NCBI GenBank assembly: GCA_900617975.1
Contig: UZAE01014973.1
Location: forward strand, 1-10,900
From: Rodentolepis nana
Taxonomy: Eukaryota; Platyhelminthes; Cestoda; Cyclophyllidea; Hymenolepididae
Direction: 5' to 3'
DNA: 10,900 nt
Made by a program: the position numbers and the translations under genes. Below the pieces are notes generated by a model. That model was not told where the DNA came from, made no database searches, and saw only the letters and a list, made by a program, of their open reading frames with translations. Positions 1-9,320 of this stretch are shown here, in pieces (the stretch's first letter is position 1; each line of letters opens with the position of its first letter).

Positions 1-311
1 TGAGTTTAGACTACGTACCGGACACGATTGCTTGGCAAAACACCTTCACAGATTGGGAGTATGCACTCAACCCACATGCCCTCTATGTAACCTACAGGAG
101 GAAATGGAGAAGACCCACCTGATTTGGTGTCCAGCTCTAAAGACAAGGACGGAAAGCCAAAGATACTGGGAAGCAAGAAGACAGCTAATGAATTGCTATT
201 AATTAACTGCTATAAATGTACCCCCCTCACTCTTGGGGGAAGCTGAAGTCAAAGATTAAGAGCTAATGATAAATATCACAAAGCCTGCCATTTGAAATAA
301 ATAAATAAATA
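1..311 (+). mobile_element. 3' end of an RNase-H-type LINE (non-LTR retrotransposon), cut by the window edge
   Basis: This is the tail of a non-LTR retrotransposon. It holds the last codons of the polyprotein (2-202), a 3' UTR of about 90 bases, and a terminal tandem A/T tail of AAAT units at 295-311. The 3' UTR part from about 216 to 294 (ATGTACCCCCC ... CCTGCCATTTG) matches the 3' ends of the short elements at 4925-5000 and 9240-9295, and the second LINE fragment at 8011-8089. The short tandem tail is typical of LINEs that prime by target-primed reverse transcription and lack a long poly(A). Compared with the 8-kb copy, this one has an extra ~15 bases around the stop codon (a near-duplication of AATTGCTATT/AATTAACTGCTAT). 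The 5' part lies outside the window. I judge the clade to be in the I/R1-like, RNase-H-bearing group; that is an inference from the C-terminus only. Confidence 0.8.
2..202 (+). CDS. LINE reverse-transcriptase polyprotein, C-terminal zinc-knuckle fragment
   Basis: The frame is open from the window edge to a TAA at 200-202 and gives 66 residues. It starts EFRLRTGHDCLAKHLHRLG, a motif found just after the RNase H domain of many RNase-H-bearing LINE polyproteins. A CCHC-like knuckle follows: Cys26-x2-Cys29, then His39-x3-Cys43 in THLIWCPAL. The C-terminus is basic and aromatic (QRYWEARR). In the family this tail is thought to help hold nucleic acid for target-primed reverse transcription. The window cuts off the endonuclease, reverse transcriptase and RNase H domains, so whether this copy is intact cannot be judged; the visible part has no frameshift. 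Its stop is followed almost directly by the 3' UTR shared with the short elements in this window. The alternative, a domesticated host gene, has no support here. Confidence 0.72.
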   Translation, partial: EFRLRTGHDCLAKHLHRLGVCTQPTCPLCNLQEEMEKTHLIWCPALKTRTESQRYWEARRQLMNCY

Positions 312-1108: not shown

Positions 1109-1415
1109 TGCATCAAATTTCAGGGCGTTGTGATAGTCATTTTTAACAAGTTAGTTGACTTCAGGCTTCACAGAGGGGAGTAGCATCAAAGTAACAAAAA
1201 TTCTATAGGGAGGGGGAACAGAAGAGTGTGTCACCGATTTAAAAGAGACAGACGCAGAGGTTGAGAAAAATTTAAGGTGAGGTAAGTACTGTGAAAGTGG
1301 TCGAATATGACACAGTTTGGAGTCAGAAGTCAAATTTCAGTTTATAGACTTCTCTGCTGTATGAGTTTACGATGCCTAGGGTTCGCCACATGAAGATTAG
1401 TCCATTGCCCACTCA
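1109..1415 (-). mobile_element. Short non-autonomous retroelement, copy A (near full length)
   Basis: On the - strand this copy follows copy D along its whole length. Its 5' end lies at about 1415, a decayed ribozyme region spans 1344-1415, and then come the shared body motifs: GACTTCTGACT, CATATTCGACCACTT, CACAGTACTTACCTCACC and CACTCTTCTGTTCC. It ends with the LINE-like 3' segment GTGAAGCCTGAAGTCAACTA and a degenerate CTGAAATTTG. It has no coding capacity; the open frame at 1151-1333 is a by-product of the pyrimidine-rich body. No clear target-site duplication is visible, so it is probably an older insertion than copy D. Confidence 0.8.
1344..1415 (-). ncRNA. Decayed HDV-like ribozyme of copy A
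   Basis: This is the same 5'-terminal position as in copies C, D and E. On the - strand it aligns with them through the joiner (AGGCATC for GGGCAAC), the P4 segment CGTAAACTCATA, a conserved C at 1356 where the catalytic cytosine is expected, and the closing P2 strand AAGTCTAT (1351 down to 1344). P1 is badly mismatched and the outer P4 pair is lost, although the inner P4 pair has become G-C. It is very probably inactive. I call it only by alignment to the better copies. Confidence 0.5.
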
Positions 1416-2411: not shown

Positions 2412-2697
2412 TCATTTATTTATTAATTTATATCAAATGGCAGCGTTTTGATAGTTACCATTGGCCTTTTAATTGACTTTGGTCTTCACAGTGGGGAGGA
2501 ACATTGAATTCGCAAAAAGTCGAGGATAAAGGGGGTGGGGGGTACAGAAGAGTTTTACAAAGATATAAAAGAGACGGACACAAAGGTAGGAAAAAGGTGA
2601 GGTGAGTACTGTGGAAGTGGTAGAATATGGCATACAGTGGGGTCATGGTAGTTTGAAGTCAGAAGTCAGCTGCCGGTTAATAGACATTTTTTGCGCA
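2412..2697 (-). mobile_element. Short non-autonomous retroelement, copy B (5'-truncated)
   Basis: On the - strand this copy begins near 2697, just before the ribozyme J4/2 region (GCGCAAAAAATGTCTATTAA). It therefore lacks P1, P3 and the first P2 strand. The body is well preserved: ACCGGCAGCTGACTTCTGAC, then CCACTGTATGCCATATTC, CACAGTACTCACCTCACC and CTCTTCTGTACCCCCC. It ends in the LINE-like segment (AAAGTCAATTAAAAGGCCAA ... GCTGCCATTTG) and an A/T tail with TAAATAAAT units. Truncation at the 5' end with an intact 3' end is the usual product of incomplete target-primed reverse transcription. No clear target-site duplication is visible. Confidence 0.82.
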
Positions 2698-3285: not shown

Positions 3286-3357
3286 GGGGTGTGCAATAGA
3301 CTTACTTCTACGTGTTGCACCCCGGGCAACGTAAACTCATATGGCAAAAAGTCTATT
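3286..3357 (+). ncRNA. HDV-like self-cleaving ribozyme, copy C (best P1, P2 and P4)
   Basis: Folding by hand gives these elements. P1 is GGGGTGT (3286-3292) with GCACCCC (3317-3323), all seven positions paired with one terminal G-U. P2 is AATAGACTT (3295-3303) with AAGTCTATT (3349-3357), nine Watson-Crick pairs. P3 is ACT (3304-3306) with GTT (3314-3316), mismatched here. L3 is TCTACGT (3307-3313), the joiner GGGCAAC (3324-3330), and P4 is CGTA (3330-3333) with TATG (3340-3343). J4/2 is GCAAA with the candidate catalytic C at 3345. The strand order P1-P2-P3-P3'-P1'-P4-P2' is the HDV double pseudoknot, and the joiner GGGCAAC is the one found in the HDV ribozyme. The known family cleaves just before P1, here before 3286. 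The P3 mismatch may weaken this copy. Confidence 0.8.
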
Positions 3358-3429: not shown

Positions 3430-4678
3430 AGGAATTCATATATCCGCTTTAAATAAAACACACATTCAAAAATGGCCAATTTTATGGGGGGGGGGTGTAA
3501 AATATCTTCATGTCTATGAAATGCCACTTTCTAATGTTTGATGGAAGTCATGATAGAACGCGTCATTCAAAGAGAACGATGATAAGACGATGAAACGGAA
3601 AAAATTGAAAATTGAAAAATTTCTACATTTCATTATCGAAAATCTAATTTTTCGGCATGGAATAAAGGTCGATAATTACGTTAATGGAGACGGGAGAGCA
3701 ATAAAGAGTCTACTACCATCTGTGTTATTAAATTGGGCTATTAGCATGGGATTTCACAAAAATATATGCACTTTATTTCTGTTTATGCGTTTATCAAAGT
3801 AGGCCATCAAATCTATAAAACTTCAATTAATTATAAAAGTACATTGGATTGTTTGATTTTTATTTCTGGGATCACGCTATTGCAATAGATTTGAATTTCA
3901 CAATTTAAGGACAAGGGAATGAACAGATAAATGGGAGAATTAGTTAGCAGAATAAATAAATGCGTTTTTTTGTTTAAACAATGAAATCTCAAATTCCAAT
4001 ATGCAAAAGTCTTAATTGCAAAAACAACCGCCTATTTTTTAATATAAACTCTTAAAAAGAAGCAAATTGCGTAGGCATTCAATTAAGTAATTACCTTTAC
4101 CCAACAAGTGCGCTAGTAGCGCGATTATTCCGCAATCGAAAGGGGCCATTGGCCGTCAAGGCATTTGGCTGAAATCGATTTTCTCACAAGGGAGGCTAAA
4201 TGCTGCCATCTATCTCGTAGCACAAGGCGTAAGGCTAAATCGTCGCGGAGGTGGCATTATATACCATTAAATGCAATAACCCAAAAAAGGCTGGAGTGGG
4301 TTAAAAGACTTCCTATTATTGTGCATCCAGCAAGCAGTAGAGCGTGAATGGCTCTTACACTAGGTGAGATTAGGAAGACAGCGAAGTTCAAAGCTTCAAT
4401 TAGGATTTATGAATTAAAGGAAACGCTTATCCTCGGTGATGGATAACACAATCACAGGGTTAATGGACGCATTTAAGTCAATAAATGTGGCACCATATGG
4501 GGTAATTAGGATAATTAAGTACCTATCATGGAAAGCATTGAAGAAATTTCTAAAGTAAGACATTTCGATTGAAATCCTTTAGTTAATGATACGTCACCCT
4601 AAACCTCACGCACATAAAGTAAAGTAAGATAAGTTATGACAACTTAGTGTGCATTTGTAGTCTATTAACCATGATCTT
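3430..4678. other. Unassigned sequence between copies C and D
   Basis: No gene is recognised in this 1.25 kb. A run of 10 G lies at 3486-3495. Open frames at 3590-3802 and 4165-4347 on the + strand (60-70 codons) have no known motif; the second lies in a locally more GC-rich patch (about 4110-4350) rich in Arg and Lys codons. AGTCTATTAACC at 4660-4671 matches the P2' strand and following bases of the short element, but it is too short to call another copy. Confidence 0.45.
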
Positions 4679-4692
4679 ATTTTATGTATCCA
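4679..4692. repeat. Left 14-bp target-site duplication of copy D
   Basis: ATTTTATGTATCCA at 4679-4692 is repeated exactly at 5005-5018. The bases on either side of the match differ (T against A before it, G against C after it), so the repeat is exactly bounded. The length fits target-primed reverse transcription of a LINE-type machinery. It ends immediately before the first G of the ribozyme at 4693. Confidence 0.93.
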
Positions 4693-4762
4693 GGGGTGTG
4701 CGATAGACTTACCTCCACGTGGTGCACACTGGGCAACGTATATTCATAGGCAAAAAGTCTAT
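4693..4762 (+). ncRNA. HDV-like self-cleaving ribozyme, copy D (at a TSD-defined 5' end)
   Basis: P1 is GGGGTGT (4693-4699) with GCACACT (4724-4730): a G-U closing pair as in HDV, one mismatch (G4695 with A4728), the rest paired. P2 is ATAGACTT (4703-4710) with AAGTCTAT (4755-4762), all eight paired. P3 is ACC (4711-4713) with GGT (4721-4723), perfect. L3 is TCCACGT (4714-4720), opening UCC as in HDV, whose C residues could form P1.1 with the GG of the joiner GGGCAAC (4731-4737). P4 is weakened by a one-base deletion relative to copy C. J4/2 is GGCAAA with the candidate catalytic C at 4751. P3 joins P1' and P1' joins GGGCAAC with no spacer, as in the HDV fold. The predicted cut before 4693 coincides with the element boundary. 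Confidence 0.83.
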
Positions 4763-5004
4763 TAACTGGCAGTTGACTTCTCACTTCAAACTACCATCAC
4801 CTCACTCTATGCCATATTCGAATATTTTCACAGTACTTACCTCACCTTTTTTCTACCTTTGTGTTTGTCTCTTATATCTTTGAAACACTCTTCTGTCCCC
4901 CCCTCTCGACTTTTTTTTCAATTTAATGTTCCTCCCCCTCTGTGAAGTCCTAAGTCAACTAAAGGGCCAATGATAACCATCAAGACGCCTGCCATTTGTC
5001 ATAA
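4693..5004 (+). mobile_element. Short non-autonomous retroelement, copy D (full length, 312 bp)
   Basis: The flanking 14-bp duplication defines the element exactly. From 5' to 3' it holds a ~70-base HDV-like ribozyme, a non-coding pyrimidine-rich body (about 4763-4920, with T runs and a C run), and a 3' segment from about 4925 shared with the LINE 3' UTR (ATGTTCCTCCCC ... CCTGCCATTTG). Over 48 ungapped positions this segment matches the 8-kb LINE copy at 38. It has no open frame of interest. Clear RNA polymerase III boxes are lacking, and internal runs of 6-8 T would stop that polymerase, so this is not a classical tRNA-derived SINE. It is better described as a LINE-dependent element released by its own ribozyme, similar in plan to the NARTc/L1Tc pair of trypanosomes. 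It could equally be an internally deleted derivative of the LINE. Confidence 0.9.
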
Positions 5005-5018
5005 ATTTTATGTATCCA
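5005..5018. repeat. Right 14-bp target-site duplication of copy D
   Basis: An exact repeat of 4679-4692 (ATTTTATGTATCCA) that marks the 3' boundary of copy D. Because the element ends in A/T-rich bases (CATAA), the first A or two of the repeat could belong to the element instead. Confidence 0.93.
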
Positions 5019-8010: not shown

Positions 8011-8268
8011 ATTATTATTATTATTTCAAATAGCAGACTTTATGATATTTATCACTAGCCCTTTAGTTGACTTCAGGTNGGGGGGAACATATATAGCAGT
8101 TAATTAATTGTCTTCTGGCTTCCCAGTATCTCTGGGTTTTCAACGTTGCCTTTAGGGCTGGATACCGAATCAGGTGGGTCTTCTCCATTTCCTCCTGTAG
8201 GTTACATGGGGGAGCATGTTGATTGAGTGTATACTCCTAATCTGTGAAGGTGTTTTGTTAGGTAATCG

Positions 8269-8338
8269 TGTCCGGTACGTAGTCTAAACTCAGCAACGGC
8301 TTCTGTCCGATACGTAGTCTAAACTCAGCAACGGCTTC
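8269..8338. repeat. Tandem duplication, two 35-bp units
   Basis: Units at 8269-8303 and 8304-8338 are identical at 34 of 35 positions (G against A at the seventh base). The unit covers the LINE codons for the AVAEFRLRT motif. Because 35 is not a multiple of three, the duplication shifts the frame. The LINE copy at the left edge shows only one unit, but its upstream side is cut off at that point. Confidence 0.92.
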
Positions 8339-8397
8339 GATTCTCGCCAGCCGGGTATGTCGGAGAGTGCCACTGTCCACTATTTCTCCTCTATGTG

Positions 8398-8510
8398 GTA
8401 GAGTGCCACTCTCCACTGTTTTTCCTTTGTTCGAACTTTAAGTTCGTTGCAACCGGAGAGTGCCGCTGTCCACTGTTTCTCCTTTGTTTGAGCTTTGAGT
8501 TCGTTACACC
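8398..8510. repeat. Tandem repeat, two ~57-bp units plus a partial third
   Basis: Units at 8398-8454 and 8455-8510 share GAGAGTGCC-(A/G)-CT-x-TCCACTGTTT and end in AGTTCGTTxxAACC-like sequence. A shortened third unit lies at about 8361-8397. On the - strand the period is 19 codons, so the LINE frame is kept through two units (CNELKAQTKEKQWTAALSG, then CNELKVRTKEKQWRVAL). Confidence 0.85.
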
Positions 8511-8583
8511 TTGAGGTCTGGAATTCTTTCCTGATTAAGGTCTTCATTGTGTGGAAAGACATCGGCCAGTCTATGTCTTTCAT

Positions 8584-8974
8584 CTGGATGAAAACGAAAT
8601 TTTATATCAATAGCTTACAAAACTATAGAGGATGTCTCCGCGTTTACCAAGCTCCTTTTTTGTTAAATGTAATGTCTACATTGAAGACAGTTTGGCGTGA
8701 ATTGAACGGATCAAATTCCGTTGCTTGGTGCCATTCATAACTGAAATTTTAAATTTCTCAAAATCTGTGAAACATGATGTGTCTGCGCTGCAGTGGTCAA
8801 CATGCACGCATGCCAATCCAGAGGTCTCGCGATTTATGCTCAACAAGTGCCAAACGGGTTGGTTAATTCTGATCAGCCAGAGAGGTGAATACGGGACGAC
8901 TTCATCTTAAAACGTTCCGAAATGGCTGTGCAAATTTTCAAATTAGCATAGAGAGTTTTTATCTATGTTACGTA
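8584..8974. other. Unassigned stretch between the LINE fragment and copy E
   Basis: Neither strand gives a recognisable protein. On the - strand a frame from about 8907 to 8670 is open for roughly 75 codons but contains no RNase H motif, which an uninterrupted LINE would have at this place. Three overlapping + strand open frames (8495-9082) have no motif. The LINE therefore appears truncated near 8583. Confidence 0.45.
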
Positions 8975-9045
8975 GGAGAGTGCGATGGACTTACCTCCAC
9001 GTTGTGCACCCTGGGCCACGTTTATACATACGTCAAAAAGTCTAT
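8975..9045 (+). ncRNA. HDV-like ribozyme, copy E (P4 kept by changed bases)
   Basis: P1 is GGAGAGT (8975-8981) with GCACCCT (9006-9012), with two mismatches. P2 is ATGGACTT (8985-8992) with AAGTCTAT (9038-9045), all paired counting one G-U. P3 is ACC (8993-8995) with TGT (9003-9005), one mismatch. L3 is TCCACGT (8996-9002), identical to copy D. The joiner GGGCCAC (9013-9019) has one change. P4 is ACGT (9018-9021) with ACGT (9030-9033). Compared with copy C, the G-U pair became G-C and a new A-U pair formed at the base, while the inner pair was lost. The candidate catalytic C is 9034, followed by AAA. The damaged P1 makes activity of this copy unlikely. Confidence 0.72.
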
Positions 9046-9320
9046 AAACCGCCAGTTAACTTCTGACTTCAAATTACCATGATCCAGAACGCCTTATAGG
9101 ACCACTCCTACGGTACTCACTTCATCTTACCTTTTTTCTGTGCCTTTGTGTCAGTGGGCTCTTTTATATCTGTGAGTTACTCTTCTGTTCCACACCCACC
9201 CCCTCCTCAAACTTTTTGTGACGTTGTCTGTCCCTCCCATCTCTGAAGCCCAAAGTCAGCTAAAGGTACTTATCAAAAAAAACCTGTCATTTGATGAAAA
9301 TGACTAAATAAATAAATTTA
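8975..9320 (+). mobile_element. Short non-autonomous retroelement, copy E (near full length)
   Basis: Starts GGAGAGTGCGATGGACTTACC at 8975 and follows copy D throughout. It has the ribozyme region, AACTTCTGACTTCAAATTACC, ACGGTACTCACTTCATCTTACC, a T run, CTTTTATATCTGTGAGTTACTCTTCTGTTCC, and the LINE-like end (CTGAAGCCCAAAGTCAGCTAAAGG ... CCTGTCATTTG). The tail contains AAAT units (TAAATAAATAAAT, 9305-9317). The body is more diverged than in D and no clear target-site duplication is seen, so this is probably an older insertion. It has no coding capacity. Confidence 0.85.

Follow-up and report, generated by a model that had tools for sequence, protein, structure and literature searches.

A self-cleaving ribozyme of the hepatitis delta virus (HDV) type very probably heads both a short, non-autonomous retroelement of the tapeworm Rodentolepis nana and the LINE that belongs to it, and the RNA of working copies would cut itself before its first G. 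Well over a hundred of the short copies examined open with an HDV-like sequence, and those that keep function would trim their own RNA at the exact first base. An earlier note on one stretch of 10,900 nucleotides (the window) had placed an HDV-like ribozyme at the 5′ end of the short element. This is supported by Rfam matches, by the strands of the family majority and by target-site duplications at the predicted site.

Ribozyme copies in the window

Short-element copies A to E and fragments of the partner LINE lie in the window as follows.

1..305, + strand: 3′ end of the partner LINE with the end of its ORF (2-202), the shared 3′ UTR and the AAAT tail (LINE family search)
1341..1415, − strand: copy A, heavily decayed ribozyme remnant (model R1, 53.4 bits; pair counts)
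2439..2690, − strand: copy B, 5′-truncated (inverted repeats with C, D and E; outer bound set by eye)
3286..3356, + strand: copy C, ribozyme (RF02682, 25.8 bits; direct repeat with D)
4679..4692, + strand: copy D, 5′ target-site duplication, ATTTTATGTATCCA
4693..5004, + strand: copy D, whole short element, SINE-like (bounded by the 14-bp target-site duplication; 3′ end common to the LINE)
4693..4762, + strand: copy D, ribozyme (matches of RF02682 and RF00094)
4692/4693: copy D, predicted cleavage between these bases
4693-4699 and 4724-4730: copy D, P1 GGGGTGT and P1′ GCACACT
4703-4710 and 4755-4762: copy D, P2 ATAGACTT and P2′ AAGTCTAT
4711-4713 and 4721-4723: copy D, P3 ACC and P3′ GGT
4714-4720: copy D, L3 TCCACGT
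4731-4736: copy D, joiner GGGCAA
4737-4741 and 4746-4749: copy D, P4, one base lost
4751: copy D, candidate catalytic C, before a run of A
5005..5018, + strand: copy D, 3′ target-site duplication
8021..8640, − strand: second, rearranged 3′ fragment of the partner LINE (inverted repeats with 1-300; ORF 8380-8601; bounds approximate)
8975..9046, + strand: copy E, ribozyme with mismatches in P1, P3 and P4 (RF02682, 19.9 bits; model R1, 72.9 bits)

The HDV strand order claimed for copy D was borne out base by base at these positions. The target-site duplication of this copy is perfect over 14 bp, and the last base of its 5′ part (4692) lies immediately before the first base of the element, G1. The helix defects that had been ascribed to individual copies were confirmed by pair counts. 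In copy D, P1 contains a single mismatch (G4695 against A4728) and P4 is one base short; copy C is mispaired once in P3 and once in P4, and its L3 begins UCU; in copy E, two mismatches in P1 and one each in P3 and P4 occur together with the joiner GGGCCA; copy A has broken pairs in P1 (four), P2 (one), P3 (one), P1.1 (one) and P4 (two). Copy C is also truncated at its 3′ end, where similarity to D stops near position 3430 of the window. Copy B retains the end of P2′ and the body of the element. Adjoining it, at 2741-2779, AGACGTAAAGTATAATCC and GGATTATACTTTACGTCT pair perfectly over 18 bp as a hairpin whose loop has 3 bases (found by eye).

All Rfam families were run against the window with a permissive threshold, the curated cut-offs being 44 bits for RF02682 (HDV-F-prausnitzii) and 50 bits for RF00094 (HDV_ribozyme). 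The best of the six window matches was copy D with RF02682, at 4695-4762, with 35.9 bits and E = 9.5e-4; RF00094 matched the same copy at 4693-4763 (28.6 bits, E = 0.73). The RF02682 matches to copies C and E had E-values of 0.21 and 4.8, respectively, and the cut-off of either model was reached by none of the window copies. Copy A gave no match to any Rfam model and was recovered by similarity and by the family model R1, built in this analysis with copy A among its training rows. No ribozyme was matched in copy B when the window was scanned with the Rfam models and R1.

Distribution in the genome and the partner LINE

The genome searched comprises 107 Mb in 4701 contigs, of which the window is one (C4642). 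With E-values up to 10, RF02682 listed 61 places, 37 of them above the curated cut-off, with a best score of 54.5 bits; RF00094 listed 71 matches, none above the cut-off, the best at 44.0 bits. Among 14 control genomes, RF02682 found some match in 8 and none above the cut-off in any; the eight named control genomes are all prokaryotes, which makes this a mild control only. Forty loci were cut out around the best 30 matches of RF02682 and the best 10 of RF00094. All 40 bear a copy of the short element at the match, and the signal therefore belongs to the family and not to copy D alone. Covariance-model hits, the lack of which would have counted against the ribozyme according to the earlier note, thus exist both genome-wide and, below the cut-offs, in the window. 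A pattern scan for the ribozyme core in viral contigs, a set that may omit records of the R. nana genome, gave no matches, and a search for the ribozyme as a translated peptide in proteins of other species gave no candidate.

The majority head of the family, taken from copies found by similarity to D, reads GGGGUGU-GCG-AUAGACUU-ACC-UCCACGU-GGU-GCACCCU-GGGCAA-CGUAU-AYUC-AUACG-GCAAAA-AAGUCUAU. It forms the full HDV double pseudoknot, with P1 of 7 bp (including G1-U38), P2 of 8 bp, P3 of 3 bp, P1.1 of 2 bp and P4 of 5 bp, L3 UCCACGU, the joiner GGGCAA and a C followed by an A-rich J4/2.

The short element resembles a SINE in having target-site duplications and a 3′ end in common with a LINE from this genome. 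Its head is the 5′ end of that LINE, and Rfam gave no tRNA, 5S or 7SL match within the window with E-values of up to 5. The LINE likely mobilises the short element. Flanks of loci chosen for one copy contained 41 further heads in 150 kb, and loci chosen by the LINE protein contained 10 in 63 kb, one of them inside the window. The density of the short family is thus 0.16-0.27 copies per kb, a rough value from flanks of loci picked for other reasons. It would correspond to about 1.7-2.9 × 10^4 short copies in 107 Mb if these flanks are typical, which they may not be.

LINE heads were sought with the N-terminal endonuclease stretch as the query, which gave 150 scored places; 39 heads were retrieved from the highest-scoring of these. 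In 34 of them, whose flanks are unrelated, the element opens at G1 with GGGGUGCGCGAUAGACUUACCUCC or a closely similar sequence, and the other five are without part or all of P1. A long-ORF LINE copy fetched apart (C3214; loci L119 and L161) has another upstream sequence, without the ribozyme. At locus L120, the ORF has its in-frame ATG at base 105, counted from G1, with 32 bases separating it from the ribozyme. Twenty whole heads, hand-picked from 40, were compared with Rfam; all 20 match RF02682 or RF00094, with the best score per head ranging from 26.4 to 40.9 bits, and none reaches a cut-off. The majority heads of the LINE and of the short element differ at 5 of the 68 ribozyme positions compared, namely one in P1, where the change keeps the pair, one in the joiner, two in L4 and the last pair of P4. 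In the LINE majority, the joiner reads GGACAA, an A replacing the G of HDV, and P4 is without its last pair. Likeness between the two elements covers the ribozyme and, weakly, about 30 bases further, is followed by divergence and returns in about the last 70 bases and the AAAT tail. The short element therefore carries the 5′ and 3′ ends of the LINE. The view that the ribozyme is a property of the short family only is overturned, because the LINE sharing both ends bears the same ribozyme. Ribozymes near LINE fragments at loci L075 and L076 were rejected as LINE heads, as the body of the short element comes next.

The LINE encodes an APE-type endonuclease (PF14529) near the N-terminus of the ORF (L120) and an RNase H (PF00075) towards its C-terminus (L076). 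A reverse transcriptase stretch was recognised by eye at L075, and some R. nana relatives of the LINE protein carry PF00078. Among the 114 relatives of this protein listed, the best are from R. nana itself (88% identity over 83% of the query; 90-91% over 34-51%), followed by Hymenolepis microstoma (65-77%) and by metagenome proteins (up to 53%). Arthropod relatives come from spiders (26-47%), psyllids (42-44%) and a cockroach (43-45%). The family had been called spider-type in the earlier note; given the ranking of R. nana and H. microstoma above the spiders, this designation does not hold. Outside the hymenolepidids, the closest named relatives of the protein (window 1-305; L076:5970-7403) are those of spiders, psyllids and the cockroach, at about 39-47% identity, a distribution that could stem from an ancient horizontal transfer out of arthropod hosts or from uneven sampling.

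Several further features were observed in LINE copies and their surroundings. At L121:2865-2936, a LINE copy has its ribozyme fused in frame to the endonuclease ORF via an internal deletion. A mariner-like transposase frame of 227 aa (by eye) lies beside the LINE at L076:2292-2975 on the − strand. The rearranged LINE fragment of the window contains a 35-base direct duplication, 97% identical, at 8269-8338.

Conservation of the fold and the 5′ ends of the elements

An alignment of 117 heads (87 short, 30 LINE or LINE-like) was assembled without structure-based selection, identical heads being counted once and seven rearranged short copies being excluded by eye. The candidate catalytic C at the start of J4/2 is present in 105 of the 117 copies and is followed by A in 114; copy D scored as a miss in the former count only through a column shift caused by its P4 deletion. 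Both P1.1 pairs, between the CC of L3 and the GG after P1′, are formed in 72/87 short copies and 28/30 LINE heads. By a strict list, all features are whole in 16/30 LINE heads and 35/87 short copies, and the true share of the latter is slightly lower on account of the seven excluded copies. Window copies D, C, E and A fail this list. Across 37 copies met incidentally, conservation is highest in the ribozyme part, with a mean pairwise identity of 0.856 against 0.772, 0.735 and 0.654 downstream, a difference that may be inflated, as the copies were recovered by a match beginning at the 5′ end.

Standard pairs occupy 2732 of 2925 cells in the 117 copies, the mean of 1000 shuffles being 2731, and 3 double changes were counted against a mean of 3.5 in 1000 shuffles, i.e., no signal of covariation. 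Hence, of the pairing conservation looked for across genomic copies, the high share of paired cells was found and covariation was not, and with paired cells at the shuffle level pairing across copies adds no support. The absence of covariation fits neutral decay after insertion and speaks neither for nor against the structure. At L010:2961 and L016:1572 (both − strand), part of the L3-P3′-P1′-joiner segment is repeated after P4, in a manner resembling the double signature of SIDER2.

The lack of covariation would also agree with a ribozyme that was active in an ancestor and whose present LINE and short families are dead remnants, as would the restriction of whole feature sets to 35/87 short copies and 16/30 LINE heads and the deviation of the LINE joiner and P4 from HDV. 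We regard this as unlikely, however: decay after insertion leads one to expect such defects, 37 places exceed the Rfam cut-off, and copies exist that combine a perfect target-site duplication with a whole ribozyme structure, as at L079 and some other loci.

The position of element 5′ ends was assessed without reference to the head by searching with the 3′ part only (4800-5005). This gave 40 places, of which 38 were fetched with upstream DNA, the window itself and one place cut by a contig start being excluded. Thirty-five of these loci align from the first three bases, 32 of them from base 1; of the remaining three, one is without the first six bases and two have no head that could be found. 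Over all distinct short copies located, 112 of 140 start at base 1. Among the 128 copies aligning from base 1 to 3, 63 include both ends, and 43 of these 63 show target-site duplications of 11-18 bp, against 6 of 315 when tails were shuffled among copies; a stricter count of exact matches gave 35/66 against 3.2% in the control. The duplication abuts G1 directly in 32 of the 43 copies, and 1, 2 or 5 extra bases intervene in the other 11. Element starts and duplications thus meet at G1, which makes the predicted cleavage site the 5′ end of the element.

G at base −1 is not enriched, being found in 11% of 111 short copies and 20% of 30 LINE heads, with a background in the 19 bases before −1 of 5-24% and 0-27%, respectively. 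Capped RNA templates often leave an excess of G at this position, and its lack is what would be expected if the copied RNA were uncapped. This bears on the idea that the 5′ block is a DNA-level internal promoter starting at G1, the HDV shape being a relic or secondary, which we consider somewhat less probable still than dead remnants. A fixed transcription start would likewise yield beginnings at G1 in unrelated flanks, and the trypanosomatid Pr77 is described in a portion of PMC4035085 as both promoter and ribozyme. Such a promoter nevertheless leaves unexplained the 37 places above the curated HDV cut-off and the presence of all helices and the candidate catalytic C in the majority, and, by the general argument on caps, it does not sit well with the missing excess of G. 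A chance resemblance inside an ordinary repeat, with which only the sub-threshold scores of the individual window copies would agree, is for practical purposes refuted by the match counts, as two HDV models match, 37 places exceed the cut-off against 0/14 control genomes, all 20 LINE heads submitted match HDV models and the predicted cleavage site coincides with the element 5′ end.

With an HDV-type ribozyme at the head of both elements, the preferred reading, a plausible cycle can be outlined. The element would be transcribed within longer host transcripts or from an internal promoter, and the ribozyme would free an RNA with a 5′-OH at G1. The endonuclease and reverse transcriptase of the LINE would then copy the freed RNA, starting at the 3′ end that both elements share, so that each new copy would begin at G1 regardless of the sequence upstream. 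Release of element RNA out of longer transcripts, with the 5′ end of new copies fixed in this way, is described for fruit fly R2 (PMC3774820) and for L1Tc/NARTc (PMC4035085). By analogy with Pr77, a promoter may coexist with the ribozyme at the same place. Cleaved LINE RNA would have a 104-base 5′ UTR consisting of the ribozyme and 32 bases before the ATG. The LINE ribozyme may also have a role in translation, to which the title of Ruminski et al. (2011) and the short spacer before the ATG point.

Relation to known systems and significance

HDV-like ribozymes at the 5′ ends of LINEs and their short partners are already known. In the trypanosomatid L1Tc/NARTc and ingi/SIDER elements (Pr77, or L1TcRz), a 5′ block of about 77 bases is, according to sections of PMC4035085, an HDV-like ribozyme cutting just upstream, and the short partners are internally deleted with both LINE ends kept. 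The LINE and short partner described here also share the ribozyme head and both ends; the host, in contrast, is a tapeworm, the ribozyme block has its own sequence, and no dedicated Rfam family matched the tapeworm heads better than the bacterial and viral models. R2 of the fruit fly type has a 5′ HDV fold, cleavage at the junction and extra bases at some 5′ junctions, as excerpts of PMC3774820 relate. Extra 5′ bases likewise occur in the tapeworm short copies (11/43). R2, however, targets 28S genes, whereas the tapeworm elements lie in unrelated sites with duplications of 11-18 bp, and the tapeworm LINE has an APE-type endonuclease and RNase H.

The tapeworm heads align with RF02682 and RF00094 along the full length of both models, including the order of the helices, L3, the joiner and J4/2. 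The two models take their names from a gut bacterium and hepatitis delta virus, respectively, whereas the tapeworm ribozyme heads retroelements and has a P4 of 4-5 bp. Retrozymes and other hammerhead retroelements are also short, non-autonomous and equipped with a self-cleaving ribozyme (part of PMC7229834), but they have a hammerhead fold, tandem repeats and circular RNA instead of an HDV fold, single copies and target-site duplications. The flatworm ribozymes described in the same part of that source are hammerheads, and a section of a mite study (PMC6275457) gives HDV-like matches by RF01787 in one chelicerate genome.

The new finding is that this ribozyme also stands at the 5′ end of the LINE with which the short element has both ends in common, 32 bases ahead of the ATG. 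A literature search, with subscription papers mostly outside its scope, returned no report joining Hymenolepis with a ribozyme or tapeworms with HDV-like ribozymes. Cyclophyllidean genomes are described in PMC12471100 as compact with inactivated retroelements. We see an even chance that the elements form the first flatworm HDV ribozyme system, in which a LINE and a short partner not derived from tRNA, 5S or 7SL RNA have a self-cutting head replacing a fixed start, and that this head let the partner reach some ten thousand copies in a lineage described as transposon-inactivated.

The preferred reading would add a tapeworm LINE that has an RNase H domain to the elements with HDV-type 5′ processing. 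Cyclophyllidean elements are "inactivated" in that description; the short family itself reaches 0.16-0.27 copies per kb at the loci examined. The compact pair of LINE and short partner, with its many duplication-bounded insertions, would offer a testbed for linking ribozyme cleavage to exact 5′ ends.
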